Positions 1 to 10,913 of a DNA stretch of 10,913 nt are shown piece after piece. Made by a program: the position numbers and the translations under genes. The notes under the pieces are model-generated. The model was not told where the DNA came from and searched no databases. It saw nothing but the letters and a program-made list of their open reading frames with translations. Source of the stretch: Bacteroidales bacterium (GTDB lineage Bacteria; Bacteroidota; Bacteroidia; Bacteroidales; UBA12077); contig JAUVUS010000038.1 of NCBI GenBank assembly GCA_030600865.1, positions 1-10,913 on the forward strand, in the 5' to 3' direction. Position 1 is the first letter of the stretch. Each line of letters starts with the position of its first letter.

Positions 1-1659
1 GGTATAATACTTCTTATCTGCATTATTCAAATAATTCACCCTATAGTAGTACTTTCCGGTATCTTGCATTCCATCAAGTTTCTTGCTTATCTTATTATAA
101 AGACTATTGCAATCATCACCTGTTTTTATTTTTCCATCATCCGGCAAAATAAAGTTTTGTGTCTGTACAATAGTATCAAAAGATGATTTTTTTGCTATTT
201 CGATAGAAAACTTACCTGAAGCCGTGGAGTATGAATTGTATCCATGAAAAGATTCGTTACTTAACACTGCATTGTTCGCAAAATTTAAATTCTCTGGCCG
301 TGGTATTTGGAAAGAGCAATCAAATTTATTTTTCACAACAATTAGACTATCATTTGACGGGTATGTTGTTTTCTTCAATTTTTTAAACCCAATTACAAAT
401 GATGTTTCAGGTGATATAACTGTTTCTTTTGAACCATCTGTTTTAGTAAATTCAGCTTCTACTGTCCAATTATATATAACACCCTTCTCCAAAAATGGCA
501 TCCATATTGGAAAAGCTTGGTTATTATCTAGATTACTAATTATTAAACTTGCTTCATCATCATTACTTAACTGCTGACTAGCCTTTGCCCCACCTGCAAA
601 AGTTAAGGTGCAAGTATTGGTATATTCTTTATTTTCGCCATCCTTTTTAAGCGTTAAAGTAAAGTCTACAGAACTTACATCATCTGAATATGGAGCGAAC
701 TGACTAACCAGATGTGGCATATCCCAAGGTATGGTATCATTATCCTTAGGATAAATATTAGATAAGGTTATTGTAGGTACAGTTTCCTTTTCGATTCTGA
801 AAGTTGCCAGCTCGCTTCTCCCCTGATTACTGCTTGCCGGTTTTCCGTCCATGTCAAAAGCCTGCACTATCCATACATATCTTTCTATGGCTTTAAAATA
901 ATCAAAAGGCATATCTGATGGCAGGTATATATACGATGAAGTTAGTATATCGGTTTTTTCCAGCAATACCGGATTTCTGTCAATTGCTGTTCTAGGTGAT
1001 TGACCTTCATAAACAGGGCATATTTTCAATTTATATTTTATCTGATTTCCACTGGTAGAATAATTAGTAACCGGAGTCCAAATAAAATTTGGAAAGGGAT
1101 TGCTTAATATATAATCATCGGTAGGAGATATTATTATTGGAGGTTCAGGAATTAAAACAGTAAAGTTCGTACAATATTCTTCGCCGGAAGTTATGTTTTT
1201 ACCATATTGATCATATACGCTTATGCATATCTCATAAAATCCTTCAGGAATAGTATTAGGCATTATAAGAGCAGACATAACATTACTGCTATACGATGTT
1301 GACATAACATCCTTGTTATACGATATTGAATTAACATCAATAATTTGTGAACCGTTTAAAATTATTATCTGGGGCATAGGTGGTATATTAAACCGTGAAG
1401 CAGACCTGCTGTTATATTTACTCTCGGCAATAATAATACCTTCCTCATTGCTTATTCTAAATCCAAAAGTAGCATTTGGATATTCAGTCGTTGTTTGATT
1501 ATTAACAATAAGCTGAATTATAGTAGGATCCTTATACCATTCATAAATTTCAGAAGGCGTTGGAGTACGTATAATCAACTTTAAATCAACTTGCGAAAAA
1601 ACAGGAGTTATTATAAGTATATTAATAATAAGCGCTAGAACCAGTGATATTTTTTTCAT
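1..1659 (-). CDS. Large secreted protein with TANFOR/Fn3-like N-terminal region, partial (C-terminus beyond window)
   Basis: Reading the minus strand from the ATG at 1659-1657, all 553 codons to the left edge are open; I checked every triplet for tta, cta and tca. The protein starts MKKISLVLALIINILIITP and has a signal peptide with likely cleavage near VFS|Q (about residue 22), so it is exported. About residues 23-170 look like a beta-sandwich ending in a 'IPEGFYEICISVYD' segment. Residues ~173-290 resemble an Fn3-like domain: 'PPIIISP', 'FIWTPV', 'YEGQSP', 'YVWIVQAFD', 'NQGRSE'. From recollection, this order (LPEG-Y-IC, PP-I-SP, F-WTP, GQSP, W-VQA-D, GRSE) matches the N-terminal part of large Bacteroidota surface proteins annotated with TANFOR domains. 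That name is recollection, not a search. Residues 290-553 continue as extracellular-type sequence with few cysteines. The gene is last in the minus-strand block, 126 nt after the small lipoprotein gene. Function is unknown; a surface or gliding/secretion-related role is possible. Confidence 0.88.
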   Translation of the reverse strand, partial: MKKISLVLALIINILIITPVFSQVDLKLIIRTPTPSEIYEWYKDPTIIQLIVNNQTTTEYPNATFGFRISNEEGIIIAESKYNSRSASRFNIPPMPQIIILNGSQIIDVNSISYNKDVMSTSYSSNVMSALIMPNTIPEGFYEICISVYDQYGKNITSGEEYCTNFTVLIPEPPIIISPTDDYILSNPFPNFIWTPVTNYSTSGNQIKYKLKICPVYEGQSPRTAIDRNPVLLEKTDILTSSYIYLPSDMPFDYFKAIERYVWIVQAFDMDGKPASSNQGRSELATFRIEKETVPTITLSNIYPKDNDTIPWDMPHLVSQFAPYSDDVSSVDFTLTLKKDGENKEYTNTCTLTFAGGAKASQQLSNDDEASLIISNLDNNQAFPIWMPFLEKGVIYNWTVEAEFTKTDGSKETVISPETSFVIGFKKLKKTTYPSNDSLIVVKNKFDCSFQIPRPENLNFANNAVLSNESFHGYNSYSTASGKFSIEIAKKSSFDTIVQTQNFILPDDGKIKTGDDCNSLYNKISKKLDGMQDTGKYYYRVNYLNNADKKYYT

Positions 1660-1785
1660 GAGACTTGTAGATTATGATTTACTTAATAAGCAAGTTTTTA
1701 AATGAACAGAACTTTAATATGTTAAATATTAATAATTTATATCATATGTTGTTTTAATTTTTCACTCACATCCTCATACCAATTC

Positions 1786-2184
1786 TTACTCAATTCCCAA
1801 CTCTTTGAGTTTCTTTTCAGCATTTTCAGTAATCTCATCAAAACGTTTTTGATATTTTTCTTTTGATGCGCAATAGTATAGTTTACTGTTCCATTGAGTC
1901 ATCCAGTTCGAACCTTCCTGAGCTAATTTCATATATTCATTCAAAAGTGTAGCGTCTGTTGGGTTTTTCATGTATTTATCAATCATTTTTATATAATCAT
2001 CCATCCACTTTTCATACTGATCGATAAACTCATCGCAATCTTTTGCTTCTCCAATTTCATTCGAATCCATTAACTCCTCTGATGATTCTGTAGAAATGTT
2101 GTCAGATTTATCTTTTGACTGGTTATTACCGCAAGATGTAAATAAAAGACTTGCAAAAAATATTATTGATATTAAAGTTTTCAT
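1786..2184 (-). CDS. Small acidic lipoprotein, helical, function unknown
   Basis: 132 residues. The N-terminus MKTLISIIFFASLLFTSC is an SPII signal with lipobox FTSC, so Cys18 should be lipidated and the protein anchored in the outer or inner membrane. Residues 19-48 are a polar Ser/Glu/Asp-rich linker. Residues 49-132 are charged and predicted helical, with 'DCDEFIDQYEKWMDDYIKM' followed by 'NPTDATLLNEYMKLAQE' and a Lys/Glu-rich tail. Besides the lipobox it has two cysteines (50 and 105). The D-C-[DE]-F-[IL]-D-x-Y-E pattern resembles small uncharacterised Bacteroidota lipoproteins (possibly DUF6591-like, from memory only). The start is chosen because the lipobox follows it directly. It lies 127 nt downstream of the beta-helix lipoprotein, with a REP-like element between, and 126 nt upstream of the large secreted-protein gene. 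No enzymatic motif is visible. Confidence 0.8.
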   Translation of the reverse strand: MKTLISIIFFASLLFTSCGNNQSKDKSDNISTESSEELMDSNEIGEAKDCDEFIDQYEKWMDDYIKMIDKYMKNPTDATLLNEYMKLAQEGSNWMTQWNSKLYYCASKEKYQKRFDEITENAEKKLKELGIE

Positions 2185-2200
2185 AATAGTTTAATTTTAA

Positions 2201-2287
2201 CACTTCGACAGGCTCAGTGTGACTCCATTTAATTCTGAAGTAAGTCATATTGAGCCTGCCTGCTGCAGGCAGGCTTGTCGAAATGTG
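2201..2287. repeat. REP-like palindromic intergenic element with nested perfect hairpin
   Basis: The left arm (2201-2223, CACTTCGACAGG...GTGTGAC) is an imperfect inverted copy of the right arm (2244-2287, GTCATATTGAGCCTG...TTGTCGAAATGTG). The right arm is interrupted by an insert that makes a perfect secondary palindrome at 2253-2275: 11-bp arms AGCCTGCCTGC / GCAGGCAGGCT around a single T. The core CTTCGACAGGCTCAGTGTGAC-type sequence is, from memory, a widely dispersed intergenic repeat of Bacteroidota genomes. It is much more GC-rich than its surroundings. It lies 24 nt past the stop of the beta-helix lipoprotein gene and 17 nt before the small lipoprotein start, so it could end or protect the upstream transcript. 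No flanking transposase is present. Confidence 0.85.
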
Positions 2288-2311
2288 ATTATTTTTTTAA
2301 CGATATCTATC

Positions 2312-3391
2312 TTAAAAATCATTCTTAGAGAATAAAATATTGCTCCATGTATAAAAATAGTCTGTAGTTCTATTATTGTAAATACCTTTCCATTCTGTTG
2401 CTGAAGGTGTAGTAGCTACACCATCTCCATTTGTATCACCTTTGTGTGTATCATCTTTGTATGAAGTAAAATAAACTCCTGTACCATTGTAATTAATTAG
2501 TTCAGCTCCAACTTGAATATCCAGCATAGCATCTGTCAAAAATTTTAAAACAACATTATCGCCAAGAGTTAGAGAATAAGTATCCCAAATTTCAAAACCA
2601 TCATACTGAATTACATAAGCTACTTCTGTTTCTTCCCAAGTGGGACTATGTGAGATAATATCTTGCCCGTGAACAAATATTCCATTATAGGTATTTGTTT
2701 GTGTAGCATCATCAGGATTACTGAAAATATTAGAATTATCGATACTTAAATGCCCGTTTATACTTAAAGGAACTGTATTATTATAAAAAGTGTTGTACTT
2801 AATAATTGTTGTTGGATCTGCACCCTGAGCAGCTAAAGCTCCATAATAGACCCCACCACTTACTCTTGTGCTGTTATTTGCAAAGATGCAATATTCAACT
2901 TTTGAATAGTTCTCTCCTAATTCTAAAACGCCTGAGTAATTATCATAACCACCATATGTAAATACACAATACTTAAATTGAGAACCATTCTGGCTACCTA
3001 AATCAACAATGTTCCAGTCACCTGAATTTGGAGTAGTGCTAATCAAATCTTCATTTGTGTCACCTCCGATATCATCTTTAATTGATGTAAATACTATAAC
3101 TGCATTTTGTAATCCTGTAGCATTAATTGTTCCATTACTCCAGACTTGCAGTCCGGCATCCGGATGGAACTTTATAATGGTACCGGCTTGTATGGTTAGG
3201 GCAGCATCAATTTTTATCGTATTGGGTATTACGTAAATAGAATCGGAATACCAAATAGCCGGTTCGAAAATATTGTAATCAACAATTACAACATTAGAAT
3301 TTGGGAGCTCCGGTTTAGGATCATCTTCTGAACATGATGCAAACCCGATAACTAAAATAAAACACAGATAAAAAAAATAATTCGTTTTCAT
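2312..3391 (-). CDS. Beta-helix-like lipoprotein with duplicated domain
   Basis: 359 residues. MKTNYFFYLCFILVIGFASC is an SPII signal (lipobox FASC, Cys20), followed by a 'SEDDPKPELP' linker, so the protein is probably surface- or periplasm-facing and membrane-anchored. The body looks like a right-handed parallel beta-helix. There are hydrophobic/Asn turns, and two copies of one unit: about residues 46-128 (PNTIKIDAALTIQAGTIIKF ... FTSIKDD-GGDTN) and about 258-337 (TYSLTLGDNVVLKF ... FTSYKDD-KGDTNGDG). The DTNxD stretches (111-115 and 319-324) are Asp/Asn-rich loops that could bind calcium. Similar FTS-KDD--GDTN-D repeats occur in uncharacterised Bacteroidota beta-helix proteins (recollection). 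No catalytic site of a pectate lyase or similar enzyme is apparent, so adhesion or glycan binding is only a guess. After the first unit the chain runs ~130 residues further, whereas the second unit ends after ~22, so the C-terminus may be shortened. A REP-like element starts 24 nt beyond the stop. Confidence 0.85.
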   Translation of the reverse strand: MKTNYFFYLCFILVIGFASCSEDDPKPELPNSNVVIVDYNIFEPAIWYSDSIYVIPNTIKIDAALTIQAGTIIKFHPDAGLQVWSNGTINATGLQNAVIVFTSIKDDIGGDTNEDLISTTPNSGDWNIVDLGSQNGSQFKYCVFTYGGYDNYSGVLELGENYSKVEYCIFANNSTRVSGGVYYGALAAQGADPTTIIKYNTFYNNTVPLSINGHLSIDNSNIFSNPDDATQTNTYNGIFVHGQDIISHSPTWEETEVAYVIQYDGFEIWDTYSLTLGDNVVLKFLTDAMLDIQVGAELINYNGTGVYFTSYKDDTHKGDTNGDGVATTPSATEWKGIYNNRTTDYFYTWSNILFSKNDF

Positions 3392-3458
3392 AATAATTAA
3401 GATTTAGTTTATATTGTTTATTCTGCACACAAAACTTTTAATATAACTTAAGACGGAC

Positions 3459-3488
3459 AGGAGATGTTAATTCAGATTCGGATCTCCT
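3459..3488. repeat. Short inverted repeat AGGAGAT...ATCTCCT
   Basis: Seven-base perfect arms (3459-3465 and 3482-3488) are separated by 16 nt, 68-97 nt upstream of the beta-helix lipoprotein start. The element could be a 5'-leader hairpin or an operator. It overlaps the edge of a degenerate ACGGACA sequence (3453-3459) related to the heptamers at 3546-3585. Function is not established. Confidence 0.45.
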
Positions 3489-3545
3489 AGAAAATATTTG
3501 TTATTGTAAATATATGGGTTAGAGTCTAATTTGAAGAAAAAATAG

Positions 3546-3585
3546 CCGGACAATAACCGGACAGCTTAAGCATAAAACCCGGACA
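3546..3585. promoter_or_regulatory. Three helically phased CCGGACA heptamers (candidate operator)
   Basis: Exact CCGGACA copies start at 3546, 3557 and 3579, offsets of 11 and 22 bp, so they sit on about the same face of the helix. On the minus strand they read TGTCCGG. They lie 155-194 nt upstream of the beta-helix lipoprotein start, and a degenerate copy (ACGGACA) is at 3453. Phased short direct repeats upstream of a gene are typical of a binding site for a multimeric regulator. The TPR-HTH protein encoded immediately upstream is an obvious but untested candidate binder. Confidence 0.45.
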
Positions 3586-3656
3586 TAATAATGCAGATGA
3601 CCAGTGTAACTATGGTTAGATTACCTGAAGTATTTATGAGATGTATAGATTAACCC

Positions 3657-3675
3657 GAAAAATTCATAATTTTTC
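3657..3675. repeat. AT-rich hairpin GAAAAATT-CAT-AATTTTTC
   Basis: Perfect 8-bp arms (3657-3664 and 3668-3675) with a 3-nt loop lie 3 nt from the larger inverted repeat at 3679-3744. In RNA it would be weak, because six of its eight pairs are A-U. Confidence 0.4.
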
Positions 3676-3678
3676 TGA

Positions 3679-3744
3679 CGATTAAGTAATACCAACAAAT
3701 TTGAGATTTATAACAACCCCAAATTTGTTGGTATTACTAAATCG
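3679..3744. repeat. 25-bp inverted repeat with 16-nt spacer
   Basis: The core arm AGTAATACCAACAAATTTG (3685-3703) is repeated exactly inverted at 3720-3738. After a single mismatch (A3684/A3739), pairing resumes with CGATT (3679-3683) and AATCG (3740-3744), giving 24 of 25 paired bases. The spacer at 3704-3719 carries ACCC. It sits 77 nt beyond the stop of the regulator gene. There is no U-tract on either side, so it is not a textbook terminator. A factor-dependent terminator, an RNA-processing hairpin, or the relic of a small palindromic mobile element are alternatives. Confidence 0.75.
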
Positions 3745-3780
3745 GGGTTTCCTGTATTGCCAACCCACATTCCATTACAC

Positions 3781-3812
3781 ATTCATACAATTCACTTCGT
3801 TTTTGTATGAAT
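3781..3812 (-). terminator. Hairpin just past the TPR-HTH stop, possible terminator or 3'-end stabiliser
   Basis: Perfect 10-bp arms ATTCATACAA (3781-3790) and TTGTATGAAT (3803-3812) enclose a 12-nt loop. The hairpin begins 8 nt after the regulator's TAA on the minus strand. The position fits a transcript end, but no T-run follows on that strand (the next bases read GTGTAATGG), so intrinsic termination is doubtful. Confidence 0.4.
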
Positions 3813-3820
3813 AATACGGG

Positions 3821-5842
3821 TTAAATGGATAGTAAATAATCAAACAATTTATTATCCGTTGATAAAGAAAATTTCTTTTTCAATCTATATTTTGCTTTTT
3901 GCACAGCATCACCGGATATAAATAGAAGTAAAGCAATTTCTTTATTACTCAAATTCATTAACAGGTATGCACACAATCGTAATTCATTGGTAGTAATATT
4001 CTGATGTTTTGTTTTTAGATTTTTAAAAAATTTGGGGTGAACCGTTTCGAAATGTAAACTAAAGTTTTCCCAATCAGACTCAGGATTCATTTGACACTCA
4101 ATATCTTTTTGTAATTTATTCAGGGCAGCTTTTGTATCGCTTTTCTGAGGTTTAAGTTTTTCAATACTATCAAGAAATTTTCGCATGCTTTCTCCCTTCT
4201 TAATAGCATAAGCTGCAGCTGTTGCTAATTCTCGGTTTTTATGATCAATCTCGTTTTGCATTGCCATTTTTTCGTTCTGTCTGGCAAATTCATTTGTAGC
4301 TAATTTGTCTTTAAGTAGCTCTTTCTCAGATTCATTTTGCTTGTTTTCAGCTAGCAATCGTTCATTCTGCAGAACCTTCAGTTCAAGCTGCATACCAAAC
4401 ATATCTTCCTTCTGATTGTGAATTATTCTATTCTTTTTCATCGCCTGCACCTTCTGAAATATCAAAATGAAAAGCACTAGAGCCACTATGCCAAGCAAAA
4501 TAATCACAATATTTTTACTGTTTTGAATTCTCTTATTTAATTTGGCATTATACTGTAGTTTTTCAATGGTACTCTTATTTTTTTCAATATCGTAAAGTAT
4601 GGTAAGATCGACGAGATACTGTTGGTTCTTTTCATTTACAATACTATCGTTATATATATTTGCTTTTTTAAAATATTGCAATGCTTCCGGATAATTGCCT
4701 CTATTTTGCTCTAAGTCTGATAACAGTTCATACCCTTGCATAATAGCCGCTTTGTTGCCAATTCTTTTCGATATGGCCATTGCTTTTCTGATATAGGAAT
4801 TTGCGCTATCAATATTATGGTTTACTAGATGATACCACCCTAAATTAATATTTGAATTTACGATATACGTACTATCTCCAGATTTTTCAGCCATTTTCAG
4901 GGCTGGAATAAATAACTTATAAGCATCTTCAGGTTTATTTTGAAACATAGATATTTTTCCTAAACTATTATAGCAAATAGCTTTTCCAAAAATGGAATTC
5001 ATTCGTTTGTTATATTCTAAGGATTTTTTATGATAAAATATAGCTGAATCATACTGCCCCAAATATCCAAAAGATCTACCTATGTTATGGTTATTAATTG
5101 CCATCCCAAGCAAACTTTCAAGCTTTTTTTCGTATTCCAGCGATTGCTTATAGTAAGTTATAGCTAATTCATACTGTCCTAATAAACGGTAAAGTCCACC
5201 TATTCCCTCGTTTGAGATAGCAATATTTTTAAGCATATAGTCTGCATTATCATGACTCTTTTCTGCAGTTTTAAGCGCTCGCGTGTAATATTCCAGCGCA
5301 GTTTTAACAGCCGATTTGCGACGGTATACAACTCCCATCATATTCAATGATAAAACCTCTAAGTAATCATCATTTACAATTAAAGCTGCTTCGTAGGCCT
5401 GTTTGTGATATTGTATAGCCATGAAATAATCGCTGCAATTAAGCTTATTTTTTCCAAGCATATTAAACGCATACGCTAAGGCTTCAAAATTATTATTACG
5501 TTCGCTCAGTTCTTTAAACTTCCATAAGCGATTAGTATCTCTTATAATTTCTTTTAGAAAATTATCCGGATCATATATGTTAAGTGTTTTATCTGCCACC
5601 CTAGCATTTAAAGTATCTACCCATACTGAGTTATTTAAGTCAAAAGATTCTTCGAGTAATTCATGTGATTGTTCCTGATTCAGTGAATCCTTAGAATAAT
5701 TTTGTCCTAAATCATGAAGAGAATCAGCTAAATTATTTATACTGTCAGCTTTGGAAGTCTTTTGTAAATTGTTTTTACTGTTATTATCTATGTTACAACA
5801 AGAAAGGAACAATAATGTGATGAGAAGAAAATTTCTTAACAT
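3821..5842 (-). CDS. Membrane-spanning TPR regulator with C-terminal LuxR-type HTH
   Basis: 673 residues. The N-terminus MLRNFLLITLLFLSCC is an export signal with a possible lipobox (FLSC, Cys15). Residues ~115-400 are tandem TPR motifs, with repeated LG-Y--A--YY-KSLEYEKK-type units (e.g. 'LGQYELAITYYKQSLEYEK' near 221 and 'LGQYDSAIFYHKKSLEY' near 261). A single strong transmembrane segment lies at ~444-463 (NIVIILLGIVALVLFILIF). Residues ~465-560 are a charged coiled coil ending in 'NRELATAAAYAIKKGE'. The C-terminal ~75 residues contain 'NITTNELRLCAYLLMNLSNK', then EIA and 'SGDAVQKAKYRLKKK', a LuxR/GerE-like helix-turn-helix (~616-660). This architecture is common in Bacteroidota one-component regulators. 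The TPR region should face the periplasm and the HTH the cytoplasm, sensing an envelope or protein signal. The ligand and targets are unknown. It is the most upstream gene of the minus-strand block, 429 nt before the lipoprotein gene. A hairpin overlaps its start codon. Confidence 0.92.
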   Translation of the reverse strand: MLRNFLLITLLFLSCCNIDNNSKNNLQKTSKADSINNLADSLHDLGQNYSKDSLNQEQSHELLEESFDLNNSVWVDTLNARVADKTLNIYDPDNFLKEIIRDTNRLWKFKELSERNNNFEALAYAFNMLGKNKLNCSDYFMAIQYHKQAYEAALIVNDDYLEVLSLNMMGVVYRRKSAVKTALEYYTRALKTAEKSHDNADYMLKNIAISNEGIGGLYRLLGQYELAITYYKQSLEYEKKLESLLGMAINNHNIGRSFGYLGQYDSAIFYHKKSLEYNKRMNSIFGKAICYNSLGKISMFQNKPEDAYKLFIPALKMAEKSGDSTYIVNSNINLGWYHLVNHNIDSANSYIRKAMAISKRIGNKAAIMQGYELLSDLEQNRGNYPEALQYFKKANIYNDSIVNEKNQQYLVDLTILYDIEKNKSTIEKLQYNAKLNKRIQNSKNIVIILLGIVALVLFILIFQKVQAMKKNRIIHNQKEDMFGMQLELKVLQNERLLAENKQNESEKELLKDKLATNEFARQNEKMAMQNEIDHKNRELATAAAYAIKKGESMRKFLDSIEKLKPQKSDTKAALNKLQKDIECQMNPESDWENFSLHFETVHPKFFKNLKTKHQNITTNELRLCAYLLMNLSNKEIALLLFISGDAVQKAKYRLKKKFSLSTDNKLFDYLLSI

Positions 5843-5874
5843 TAGAGTATTTTAAAGATTTTTAAAACTCTAAT
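5841..5874 (-). promoter_or_regulatory. Hairpin overlapping the regulator start codon
   Basis: ATTAGAGT (5841-5848) and ACTCTAAT (5867-5874) form perfect 8-bp arms. A few more A-T pairs are possible inside across the A-rich spacer. In the minus-strand mRNA the downstream arm ends at the AU of the AUG (5842-5841), so the fold would hide the start site. This could be translational control or a dyad operator. The A/T-rich composition makes chance formation possible. Confidence 0.4.
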
Positions 5875-5883
5875 ATAATAAAT

Positions 5884-6015
5884 CTATTTAAACTTTTCTA
5901 AAAATTCTGCTTTTCGATTTACCGAAACATCAACTACAGAGCCATCGGACATTTCTACCATGCCACCTTTACCTTTTAGATATTTTGTAACGTATTGGAA
6001 GTTTATAAGGTGAGA
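5884..6015 (-). pseudogene. C-terminal remnant of a LytTR-type response regulator
   Basis: On the minus strand, 43 codons and a TAG stop (5884-5886) translate as SHLINFQYVTKYLKGKGG, then MVEMSDGS, then VVDVSVNRKAEFLEKFK. This matches the end of a LytTR DNA-binding domain: the S-x-L-[IV]-N, Y-[IV]-x-K-[YF], GG-[YM]-V-x-[ML]-[SE]-DG, V-S-[RN]-x-K-x-x-F-L pattern. Homology stops exactly at the serine where the family normally has a preceding [RK]-[VI]-H-[KR], and an in-frame stop (6016-6018) follows upstream. No start codon or receiver domain is present. It lies 41 nt upstream of the regulator's start. It is a decayed fragment or half of a chimeric join; it should not be translated as it stands. 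Confidence 0.8.
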
Positions 6016-6019
6016 TTAA

Positions 6020-6178
6020 TTAACTCCAAATAAAGTTGGAGCTTTTGAAGGTGCCGGATACAACCAATATGGTTTGCATCGTTCGCAATTAGATTGTATA
6101 ATGTTTTCGCACCATACAACTTTTTGTAAAGTTTGCCAATACAACATTAGCAATGTAATAGATCAATATTCGGAGTAA
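6020..6178 (+). pseudogene. C-terminal remnant of an M64-family (IgA-type) metallopeptidase
   Basis: Plus-strand codons from 6020 read LTPNKVGAFEGAGYNQYGLH, then RSQLDCIMFSHHTTFCKVCQ, then YNISNVIDQYSE and a TAA at 6176-6178. The VG-FEGAGY, [LIV]-[YH]-R-x-x-x-D-C-x-M and F-C-x-V-C-Q signatures are those of the C-terminal end of M64 peptidases, which are secreted zinc metalloproteases with a conserved Cys cluster. The catalytic HExxH region and signal peptide are absent. A stop at 6017-6019 lies in frame immediately upstream, so it cannot be a complete gene. It abuts the LytTR remnant head-to-head. This identification comes from motif memory and is strong but was not searched. Confidence 0.78.
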
Positions 6179-6195
6179 ATCTATTCACACTATCT

Positions 6196-6220
6196 AAGAA
6201 AAGCCACCAGCAACGGTGAC
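6196..6220 (-). terminator. Candidate weak intrinsic terminator, minus direction
   Basis: On the minus strand GTCACC (6220-6215), a 6-nt loop and GGTGGC (6208-6203) form a GC-rich 6-bp stem with one G-T wobble, followed by TTTTCTT (6202-6196). It is the only GC-rich stem in this AT-rich stretch, and lies 24 nt after the M64 remnant stop and 141 nt before the giant gene. It may have been the bidirectional end of the original M64 gene. The stem is short and the assignment tentative. Confidence 0.4.
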
Positions 6221-6361
6221 TCTAATATATTAATCCCTTTTCAAAAATTGTGTTATTTAACATATTTTTTTGAATGTAATTTTAAATAAGCTCTAATTAA
6301 TAATGTTAACTTTAAATTTAGAATATTAAATCCTAATTAGAATTTTAAATTAAAAAAAGTT

Positions 6362-9300
6362 ATGAAAAAAAATTACTTAAAAAATGTATTAACTTTTGTT
6401 TTGGTTTTATCCACAACAATTCTTTTTTCACAAAACAAAATAACAAGTTTTCCATATACTGAAAGTTTTGAATCAGGACTAGGTGACTGGGTACAATCAG
6501 CAGATGATGATTTTGACTGGTCGTGGAATACAGGGGGAACACCTTCAACAGGAACCGGACCTAATGCAGCTTATGATGGTAGTTACTATATTTATACCGA
6601 AGCATCTGGTTTTAACAATGTTGAAACTTATTTAGATGCTTCCTTTGATCTTTCAAGCATATCTAATCCTTTTTTATTTTTCTATTACCATATGTATGGT
6701 GCTGATATGGGTAGCCTACATATTGACATTTGGGATGGAACATGGAATCAAGATATTTTTGTACTATCAGGACAACAACAAACTGATTATTCATCAGATT
6801 GGAAACAAGCAGCTGTTGATTTGACAAGCTTTGTCGGCAATGATAGCATTGTTATTCGTTTAAGAGGAATAACCGGTCCAAGTTATATGAGTGACATTTG
6901 CATTGATAGTATTAGTGTACTCGAACCTGCTGAAATGAGTTATGTTTCAAGCACAACTAACCAACCAGTTATTACTAATGTAAGTCAAAATACAACTGAT
7001 AATATTATTGCTGTAATTGAAATTACCACAGATGGTTTTTTAAATCCTTTAGAAATTAATGCATTCAATTTAAATTCAACCGGATCCGACGATTTTAATA
7101 ATGATATTAGTAATGTTAAAATTTTCTATACTCAATCTGATAGTGCTTTTAATACAACCACCTTGTTTGGATCATCAACTGACCTGAGTATCCCAATTGC
7201 AGGATATGCAAAATTATCAGATGAAAAAAACTATTTTTGGGTCACTTATGATATTTCGGAAAACGCTACTCCTGAAAATATAATTGATGTTGAATGTACT
7301 ATAATTTCATTTAACGGAGCCGCTGGAGACCAAGTACCAACGATTACAAGCCCTGTAGGATATCGTACCATTGATCCAATAATGAACTTACTGTCAGAAG
7401 CTTGTTTTACAGCATCAACAGATGATGTAATGCAAAACAAAAATGATTATGCAATTATTGGAATAAATATACAAACTGAGAACAGTTCAGATCCTCTTAA
7501 TATTAGCGAAATAAAATTTAAACCAACTGGTTCTGATGATTTTACAAACGATGTATATAAAGTTAACTTATATTATACAGCAAATAGTGATGTTTTCGAT
7601 ACAAATAATCTATTTGGCACAGCAACTACAAATGATACTATAATAACGGGGTCGCAAGAGCTAGAGTTAGGGAATAACTACTTTTGGATAACATATGATA
7701 TTTACTCTTCAGCTACTGTTGGGAATAAAGTGGATGCTGAATGTCATTATCTGATGATTGAAGGTATAAAATATTTCCCGACAGATTCTGCACCAGCAGG
7801 CAACAGAACAATTATTGAATATTCAAAATATTACAACTTTATGCCCGCCAATATTGTTGTTGGCCAACCCGATTTTTACACACAAAATACTACTTTAGAT
7901 GAATATACAGGTATTTCATCAAGTTCATCAGATGTAAATTCAAAAGGAGTTTTAGCTGTTGGATCTCAAGGATCCGGAAGAATTCTAATTTGGAATCATA
8001 TTCCCGATACAAATGGAACACCTGCTGATATTGTTCTTGGCAACCCCGATTTTTATACAGAGAATAATGGACCAACAGATGCATTTATGAATAACGTAGA
8101 AAGTGTATGTTTTTCTCCTGATGGTGAAAAATTAATAGCAAGCGATGGAGGTAATAACAGAGTTTTAATTTGGAACTCCATTCCTACAACAAATGGACAA
8201 CCTGCTGATGTTGTTATTGGACAAAATGATTTCACCTCTTCTTCTACCGGATTGGGGCCTGATAAATTTAATTATCCTTGGGGTGTATTCATAACCCCGA
8301 CAGGAAAGTTAATCATTGGGGATAGACAAAATAATCGTTTTCTGATTTACAATCAAATACCCACTGAAAATGGGGCTTCTGCGGATATTGTAATAGGACA
8401 ACCTGATATGTATACAAACTCCCCAAGTTGTTCAGTAAATAAAATGAGCACAGTTACGTGTGCTACCTTATCTACTGAAGGGAAATTAATATTAAGTGAT
8501 AGAGGTAATCATAGAATACTTATTTATAATGAAATTCCAACTGTAAATGGCGCTTCTGCAAATATAGTTATAGGTCAACATGATTTTATTACCAGTGGTG
8601 GTAGTTTATCAGATTCTACTTTTAATATCCCAATTGGTGTAACAGTTTCACCAAAAGGAGAACTAGCAGTCGCCGATTTTAGTAATAATAGAGTTCAAAT
8701 TTTTAATAAACTACCTACACAAAATAATGCTAAAGCAGATTATGTTTTAGGACAACCTGATTTTAATTCAAACACAGCGTTTAATGGTGGAGTAAGTGAA
8801 AAATCTATGTATCATCCATACGGTATTAATTTTGATTTAAATGGCCGGCTTTATGTAAACGGTAGAGATATGCACAGAGTAATGATTTATGGTGAATTAC
8901 CTACTGATACCGCTGATTTAAATATCTCTATTGCAGCAGATAAAACGAATCCTCATATAGGGGAATCCATTATTTATACATTTACATTAAGCAATAACGG
9001 GCCAAATAGTTCCAGTGAAATTGTTGTAAAAAGTGCATTACCCGGCCTGTTTAAACTTGATAATTATAGTGTAGAAAAAGGAGAATACCAACCCTATGGA
9101 GGAACCTGGAATGTTCCATTCATGGCATCGGGAGAAAGTATTGATCTTATTTTAGATGGTACTATCGAAGATGGAAGTGGTGATATAACTGCATATTCAA
9201 ACATTATTGCATCATCGGCAATTGATACCATTATGGATAATAACGCGACTTCGTTAACAATCAATGTAATTAATGAGGCTCCAACAATTACCGTATTTAC

Positions 9301-10870
9301 TAATGATACAATTGACCAGGGAACATCAACAGATTGGATTCCTTTTACAATTAATGATGTTGATACTGAAATGTCTAACATAGAAGTTACTGCCATTTCT
9401 TCAAATCAAACGATTGTTCCTGATGTTAATATTCAACTCAATGGTGAAGATGAAAACAGGTATCTAAAAGTTACTCCACTTACAGATCAGTCTGGAGCTG
9501 TAGATATTACAGTAACTGTTTCTGATGGTTATAATGAAGATCAATCCGTTTTTGAATTATATATTTTAAGTAATAATGCAAATCTTATTGATTTGGATAC
9601 TTCAGGAACTACAATTACTGGTTTTAGATCTGATTCATTAACATATACTTGTGAATTACCTGCAGGAACAACAACAGCACCTACAGTTACTGCTCTTGCT
9701 GAACATATAGAAGCACAAGTAAATATTTATGAAACGGATACTTTACCTGGCATTACCACTGTGGAAGTAACAGCAGAAGATGGAAAAACTGTTAATACTT
9801 ATTTAGTTACATTTGTTTTCCCTGTTAATACAAATAACGATGCTAGTTTAATTGATTTACAAGTTGAAGGAACTACTATAGATGGATTTTCTCCTATACA
9901 ATACTTCTATACTGAATATTTACCTTATGGTACAGTAATAGTGCCTTCGATAAGTGCAACGCCTAAAAATGGAGCAGCAACAGTTGGTATTATAAAAACT
10001 CTTGTATTACCAGGTAGAGATTCAATTGTTGTAACTGCCACTGATGGTGTAACTGAACAAACATACGTTATTGATTATGTTGTTAACGGTGCATCAGACA
10101 ATAATAACCTTCAAAAAATAACAGTGGATGGTGAAGAAATTGTTACATTCGATCCAAGTGTTTTAAATTACACTATTGAGTATCCTTATGGAACGACTGT
10201 TGTACCAACAGTTATTGCAGTTGCTGAAGATGTAAATGCATCAATAAATCAAACAGATGCAACTTCAATGCCCGGAACAACCACAATTGATGTATATGCA
10301 GAAGATGCAACCATGAAAACCTACACAGTAGAGTTTACATTAGCTTTACCTTCTGATGATGCTACTCTTATTGATCTGGATGTAGATGGTTCTACAATTT
10401 TTGGTTTTGATCCTGCTGTTTATTCTTATGATATAGAATTAGAAAATTCAGTAATTGAAGTACCTGAAGTTACAGCTGAAGCAACCAATGATAGTGCTGA
10501 TGTTGTAATTACAGAAGCTACATCAATACCAGGAACTACATCTGTTGTTGTTACAGCAGAAGATGGGACTACAGAATTAACTTATGATGTTAATTTCTCA
10601 TACAAACCACTTAGCACTGTTTCTTTATTAAGTGATTTAAAAGTTGATGGAGTTACGGTAAATGGATTCGATCCTGAAGTATATACGTATACTGTAAAGT
10701 TACCTATAGACGCAACGACTCCACCAATAACAACAGCAACTGTATACGACTCTAAAGCTTCAAAGGATATTAGTAATGCGTCAGATATACCAGGCACATC
10801 GACTGTAACTGTAACTGCTGAAGATGGCTCAACATCTGTTTATTCTGTTAACAGAATAAACAGATGTTGA
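6362..10870 (+). CDS. Giant multidomain exported protein (MAM-like, sialidase-associated, NHL-like propeller, cadherin-like repeats), 3' end artificial
   Basis: 1502 codons as assembled, starting after an A-rich leader (AAAAAAAGTTATG). Residues 1-24 are a signal peptide (cleavage near LFSQ|N). Residues ~28-187 are a MAM-like jelly roll (PYTESFESGLGDW ... DICIDSISV). Residues ~192-335 and ~343-485 are two copies of a beta-sandwich resembling the N-terminal domain of BNR-repeat sialidases (GSDDF--D---V---Y, YFW[VI]TYDI). Residues ~493-847 are six 59-60-residue NHL-like blades. Residues ~850-970 resemble DUF11, and ~971-1068 an Ig/cadherin-like domain. Residues ~1070-1496 are five cadherin-like beta-sandwich repeats (GF-P-----Y, PGT--V-VTAEDG). 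No catalytic residues are evident, which suggests a cell-surface or type IX-secreted adhesin or scaffold. The expected C-terminal sorting domain is missing: codons after V1496 (NRINRC and the TGA at 10868-10870) come from a fold-back palindrome centred at 10849|10850. True coding sequence is supported only through 10849. Confidence 0.9.
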   Translation: MKKNYLKNVLTFVLVLSTTILFSQNKITSFPYTESFESGLGDWVQSADDDFDWSWNTGGTPSTGTGPNAAYDGSYYIYTEASGFNNVETYLDASFDLSSISNPFLFFYYHMYGADMGSLHIDIWDGTWNQDIFVLSGQQQTDYSSDWKQAAVDLTSFVGNDSIVIRLRGITGPSYMSDICIDSISVLEPAEMSYVSSTTNQPVITNVSQNTTDNIIAVIEITTDGFLNPLEINAFNLNSTGSDDFNNDISNVKIFYTQSDSAFNTTTLFGSSTDLSIPIAGYAKLSDEKNYFWVTYDISENATPENIIDVECTIISFNGAAGDQVPTITSPVGYRTIDPIMNLLSEACFTASTDDVMQNKNDYAIIGINIQTENSSDPLNISEIKFKPTGSDDFTNDVYKVNLYYTANSDVFDTNNLFGTATTNDTIITGSQELELGNNYFWITYDIYSSATVGNKVDAECHYLMIEGIKYFPTDSAPAGNRTIIEYSKYYNFMPANIVVGQPDFYTQNTTLDEYTGISSSSSDVNSKGVLAVGSQGSGRILIWNHIPDTNGTPADIVLGNPDFYTENNGPTDAFMNNVESVCFSPDGEKLIASDGGNNRVLIWNSIPTTNGQPADVVIGQNDFTSSSTGLGPDKFNYPWGVFITPTGKLIIGDRQNNRFLIYNQIPTENGASADIVIGQPDMYTNSPSCSVNKMSTVTCATLSTEGKLILSDRGNHRILIYNEIPTVNGASANIVIGQHDFITSGGSLSDSTFNIPIGVTVSPKGELAVADFSNNRVQIFNKLPTQNNAKADYVLGQPDFNSNTAFNGGVSEKSMYHPYGINFDLNGRLYVNGRDMHRVMIYGELPTDTADLNISIAADKTNPHIGESIIYTFTLSNNGPNSSSEIVVKSALPGLFKLDNYSVEKGEYQPYGGTWNVPFMASGESIDLILDGTIEDGSGDITAYSNIIASSAIDTIMDNNATSLTINVINEAPTITVFTNDTIDQGTSTDWIPFTINDVDTEMSNIEVTAISSNQTIVPDVNIQLNGEDENRYLKVTPLTDQSGAVDITVTVSDGYNEDQSVFELYILSNNANLIDLDTSGTTITGFRSDSLTYTCELPAGTTTAPTVTALAEHIEAQVNIYETDTLPGITTVEVTAEDGKTVNTYLVTFVFPVNTNNDASLIDLQVEGTTIDGFSPIQYFYTEYLPYGTVIVPSISATPKNGAATVGIIKTLVLPGRDSIVVTATDGVTEQTYVIDYVVNGASDNNNLQKITVDGEEIVTFDPSVLNYTIEYPYGTTVVPTVIAVAEDVNASINQTDATSMPGTTTIDVYAEDATMKTYTVEFTLALPSDDATLIDLDVDGSTIFGFDPAVYSYDIELENSVIEVPEVTAEATNDSADVVITEATSIPGTTSVVVTAEDGTTELTYDVNFSYKPLSTVSLLSDLKVDGVTVNGFDPEVYTYTVKLPIDATTPPITTATVYDSKASKDISNASDIPGTSTVTVTAEDGSTSVYSVNRINRC
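7838..8902 (+). repeat. Six-unit NHL-like propeller repeats within the giant CDS
   Basis: The motif A-[DN]-[IVY]-V-[ILV]-G-[QN]-x-D-[FM] has its alanine at residues 496, 555, 615, 674, 733 and 792, a spacing of 59-60. Each unit also contains an N-R-x-x-I-[WYF]-[NG]-x-[IL]-P strand (from about 540, 600, 659, 718, 777 and 839). Six blades make a closed beta-propeller plausible. Units are diverged in sequence. Confidence 0.85.
9569..10849 (+). repeat. Five tandem cadherin-like beta-sandwich repeats
   Basis: Each ~85-90-residue unit starts with L-x-x-[LI]-x-V-[DE]-G-x-x-[IV]-x-x-F, has an x-Y-x-[YV]-x-[LY]-P strand, and ends with P-G-[TIR]-[TD]-[ST]-[IV]-x-V-x-A-[ET]-D-[GA]. Units begin near residues 1072, 1159, 1247, 1332 and 1418. 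The fifth stops at V1496 only because the sequence folds back. DNA-level similarity between the ends of units (for example AGCAGAAGATGG at 9773 and 10557) makes this a region where assemblers break. Confidence 0.85.
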
Positions 10871-10913
10871 GCCATCTTCAGCAGTTACAGTTACAGTCGA
10901 TGTGCCTGGTATA
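10786..10913. repeat. 128-nt perfect fold-back palindrome at window end
   Basis: Bases 10850-10913 are the exact reverse complement of 10786-10849, with 64-nt arms, no mismatch and no spacer. The centre is GTTAAC (10847-10852). The inverted copy reads the coding sequence backwards and truncates the giant CDS. The palindrome reaches the last base of the window, so the arm may be longer. A perfect coding-sequence palindrome without a loop is the signature of a fold-back chimera rather than a natural terminator. Confidence 0.95.

Follow-up and report, generated by a model that had tools for sequence, protein, structure and literature searches.

The window, the whole stretch of 10,913 bp that makes up contig C136, ends in a perfect palindrome that is confirmed as an observation and, as biology, is not a real feature; in all probability it is an artefact of sequencing and assembly at the contig end. 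The two arms (native arm, 10786-10849, + strand; spurious arm, 10850-10913, - strand) are 64 nt long each, 100% complementary and separated by a spacer of 0 nt, with the right arm, the exact reverse complement of the left, reaching the last base of the contig and the strand turning back at the centre GTTAAC (10847-10852). Comparison of the arms therefore bore out the preliminary description of an exact 64-bp fold-back with no loop and a GTTAAC centre. The explanation preferred there, a fold-back introduced during amplification or assembly, is also supported, as relatives continue the gene beyond this place and its 3' end was located together with conserved neighbours on a second contig of the same assembly, C179. 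Using the base composition of bases 1-10849, the probability of 64 matched pairs arising by chance at one centre was calculated to be about 10^-35, and at the composition of the window about 10^-29 such centres are expected per 2.8 Mb. The 128-mer was found at a single place in its own genome, the end of C136, where it matches itself on both strands.

The contig is one of 467 in a draft genome that totals 2,801,114 bases, with a completeness of 71.97% and a contamination of 2.15%. The sequence leading into the palindrome is the 5' portion of a gene for a large repeat protein (6362-10849, + strand), assigned on the basis of Pfam matches and eight homologues and truncated at the fold-back. Pfam matches to MAM, BNR_assoc_N, NHL, DUF11 and Cadherin-like domains were obtained for the open reading frame running from 6362 into the palindrome, and the cadherin-like assignment made in the preliminary description holds, since PF12733 scored 26.2 bits, above its cut-off of 24.2. 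The left arm, which comprises the last genuine bases of the contig and codes for repeat protein, is almost certainly ordinary bacterial surface-protein gene sequence that was split by the artefact. All eight homologues (1705-2410 aa, 67-80% identity) contain more repeats beyond the palindrome point, and precomputed domain annotation places PF18962 at their C terminus, which we take to be a secretion-system sorting domain, the source name of one homologue being in agreement. At the DNA level, relative G010 matched at 74% across bases 1-1344 of the 1350-base query, an alignment that reaches the palindrome centre and ends there, and the frame of G010 is open past the corresponding place. The DNA of a second relative, G005, departs from the window just after the centre yet stays in frame beyond it.

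These comparisons bear directly on the idea that the palindrome is a functional part of the coding sequence, as in mitochondrial genes of Nematomorpha, for which the available part of one article describes perfect intragenic inverted repeats of up to 284 bp (PMC6649704). In those genes, according to the same text, both arms encode conserved protein, whereas here the second arm provides six codons before the frame ends at a stop at 10870. Moreover, the second arm differs from the continuation in both G010 and G005, and the existence of relatives that stay in frame at this place and have no inverted arm there contradicts a coding palindrome, which is the least probable of all the explanations considered.

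The sequence at the centre was examined with the homologues as a reference. A motif around TVTVTAEDGSTSxY was identified in 11 of the 13 homologues examined, taking the best match with at most four substitutions, and the residue at the position of the codon AAC was Asn in nine and Tyr in two of the 11 that bear the motif. Because AAC encodes Asn, the residue that most of these homologues carry here, the six centre bases may be native and may have acted as the seed of the fold-back. However, a spacerless fold-back after GTT always yields GTTAAC, native or otherwise, and the absence of GTTAAC at this place in G005 and G010, which carry GTATAT and GTGTAT, respectively, with a Tyr codon in both, counts against a native centre.

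Judged by its similarity to the relatives, the genuine sequence past the fold-back is present elsewhere in the same assembly, on C179 (L069). Positions 3539-4387 of this contig (- strand) encode 283 residues in an open, stop-terminated frame that is 93% identical to residues 1423-1705 of homologue P0007, residues 203-1350 of which match C136 up to base 10852, leaving a gap of 72 codons between the two contigs, provided that the number of repeats is that of P0007. Beside the gene end, C179 carries stop-to-stop frames of 268 and 657 residues, both of which have matches immediately past the gene in G010 (91% and 82%) and in G005 (77% and 71%), with order and orientation as in both of these relatives. 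Since the gene end and its neighbours on C179 follow the order seen in the relatives, the chromosome very probably runs from C136 into C179. An exact direct repeat of 83 bp (C179 4044-4126 and 4305-4387) represents neighbouring repeat units of the same gene, and its second copy extends to the end of the contig; as C179 ends inside a copy of this repeat, the interval between C136 and C179 is repetitive. The last 300 bases of C179 matched only themselves, the neighbouring copy on C179 and the repeats of the gene on C136.

The preliminary description had also offered a hairpin telomere as an alternative, that is, a covalently closed end of a linear replicon at which the chromosome stops and reads turn onto the other strand. 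From the toy graph described below, de Bruijn assembly of such a telomere would be expected to leave an identical palindrome at the contig end, but this alternative was not sustained and is now hardly credible. The join lies inside a gene whose 3' end and usual, conserved neighbours are on C179, G010 and G005 run through the place, and no second end of this kind was found among the 251 sampled contig ends of the genome. Instead of a replicon end at the palindrome centre, the comparison points to continuation of the gene on C179, where the gene order is that of both relatives, an arrangement with which a hairpin at 10849 would be compatible only in a mixed population.

For the artefact, we propose that amplification or library preparation generated an inverted chimeric molecule in which the coding strand was joined to its own complement, perhaps seeded at the short native palindrome GTTAAC at 10847-10852. 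The available text of two articles reports that inverted chimeras arise in library preparation, with a model based on pairing at short palindromes (PMC10908179), and that they are a product of whole-genome amplification (PMC6218980). A de Bruijn assembler, probably using k=127, would then walk over the centre of the chimera and halt where the next edge is the reverse complement of an edge already used, so that the last 128 bases of the contig would form a single self-complementary (k+1)-mer, while the native gene would continue and end on C179.

The relation between k and the length of the palindrome was assessed using a toy de Bruijn graph built from the left arm of the window and inverted arms of 30, 64, 70, 100, 150, 300 and 1000 bp. 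At k values of 55, 77, 99, 119, 127 and 141, the terminal palindrome measured exactly k+1 for every tested arm of at least (k+1)/2; k=127 yielded 128 bp, equal to the observed length (128 = 127+1), and at k=141 a true arm of 64 bp likewise gave 128. With odd k, the walk across the fold-back centre arrives at a self-complementary (k+1)-mer, after which it would have to take an edge already used on the other strand. The toy graph was error-free, counted edges and contained no competing native path; with such a path the walk would branch earlier, which implies that the actual assembly graph either lacked the native continuation or had it pruned. Where contigs are ended on k-mers, 126 instead of 128 bases would be expected at k=127, and SPAdes-like cutting of self-complementary edges would also leave 126, not 128, at this k. 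The fit to the toy graph suggests that k=127 was probably used in this assembly. The arm length may thus have been set by the assembler (k+1), a point absent from the preliminary description, and if this is so, the value of 64 bp tells nothing about the length of the inverted arm in the molecule. A search for shared contig ends, from which k might be read, found no exact overlap of at least 15 bp among 126 of the 467 contigs, except for the self-overlap of the reversed window and a repeat of 31 bp on C140, and the first 400 bases of the window had no other match in the genome. Contig C140 (L059, 4224 bp) has 31 identical bases at 1-31 and 4194-4224, a sequence that occurs nowhere else in the 126 contigs with up to four substitutions allowed, and may represent either a circular element or a repeat at which assembly was interrupted.

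As the toy graph at k=127 cuts any arm of at least 64 bp to the same 128 bp, a long duplication and a short chimera are indistinguishable by sequence alone. The observed end would accordingly also be produced by a real inverted duplication centred at 10849 and present in some or all cells. This is very unlikely, however: C179 carries the 3' part of the gene together with its conserved neighbours, no inverted duplication was present in the relatives examined (G010 and G005), and long, spacerless perfect palindromes are unstable in bacteria. An equally small chance is given to the particular case of an inverted duplication made at GTTAAC within the repeat-protein gene in part of the population, its true length being hidden by the k+1 cut. 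More unlikely still is a pure error of the assembler that involved no chimeric molecule, which would also be an artefact and is counted within the favoured reading; the position of the contig end in a repetitive gene speaks for it, but a de Bruijn assembler should, by our reasoning, require at least one read with k-mers across the centre.

The frequency of such ends was estimated in a sample of 126 readable contigs of the 467 in the genome (779,814 bases, the window included), obtained after 141 contigs were looked at and 15 consisting entirely of N were left out; an apparent end-to-end palindrome in contigs C2, C6, C8 and C10 was rejected because these contain nothing but N. One sampled contig, 21,693 bases long, was covered as far as base 20,000. 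Apart from that of the window, the longest perfect palindrome at any position in these 126 contigs was 30 bp, and the longest terminal palindrome at the other 250 of the 251 contig ends sampled was 14 bp. Inverted repeats were noted at two further places. In the window, positions 3679-3744, between two minus-strand open reading frames, form a long imperfect hairpin with 30-nt arms that are 90% complementary and 6 nt apart; as RNA, the minus strand of 3660-3760 is predicted to fold at -38.3 kcal/mol (z -9.14), and the hairpin is not followed by an evident run of U. Contig C29 (L038) opens, within its first 59 bases, with one arm of an inverted repeat whose arms are a few bases apart, which may be a native hairpin located where the assembly broke. 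A survey of viral contigs comprised three scans of 50, 63 and 70 loci (183 in total, some sharing a contig), in the third of which only 10 of the 70 loci carry 3300 numbers, which presumably denote metagenome samples. None of the 183 loci had a terminal palindrome of more than 8 bp, a weak test as locus ends are not all contig ends, and none had a direct terminal repeat of 20-500 bp, again a weak test. The artefact is rare in the samples examined.

The palindrome has no biological importance, and its value lies in quality control. A contig end formed by a perfect palindrome of k+1 bases suggests that the assembler met its own reverse strand, and such ends, here 10850-10913, should be trimmed to avoid false gene ends or false telomeres. 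In the present case the palindromic end also directs attention to C136 and C179 as likely neighbours. In the titles and abstract openings examined, palindromes of length k+1 at contig ends were not mentioned, which is not a claim that they are unpublished.

Hairpin telomeres of linear replicons carry a terminal perfect inverted repeat, as seen here; however, the palindrome of C136 sits inside a gene whose continuation is on a different contig. Likenesses are also offered by known artefacts and assembly effects, each compared here with the available part of the article concerned. The inverted chimeric reads explained by the PDSM model resemble the present case in that a native palindrome or inverted repeat is the site where a strand becomes linked to its reverse complement, but they come from human short-read libraries, whereas the present palindrome is seen in the assembled product (PMC10908179). 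Palindromic fragments from whole-genome amplification likewise consist of head-to-head inverted copies, but those reported come from long reads obtained after amplification of Arabidopsis and gorilla DNA (PMC6218980). In the de Bruijn contig ends of length maxK used by COBRA, k sets the length shared at a break, as it may here; those overlaps, however, lie between contigs or within circular contigs, whereas the overlap of C136 is with its own reverse complement and its length is perhaps k+1 (PMC10914622).
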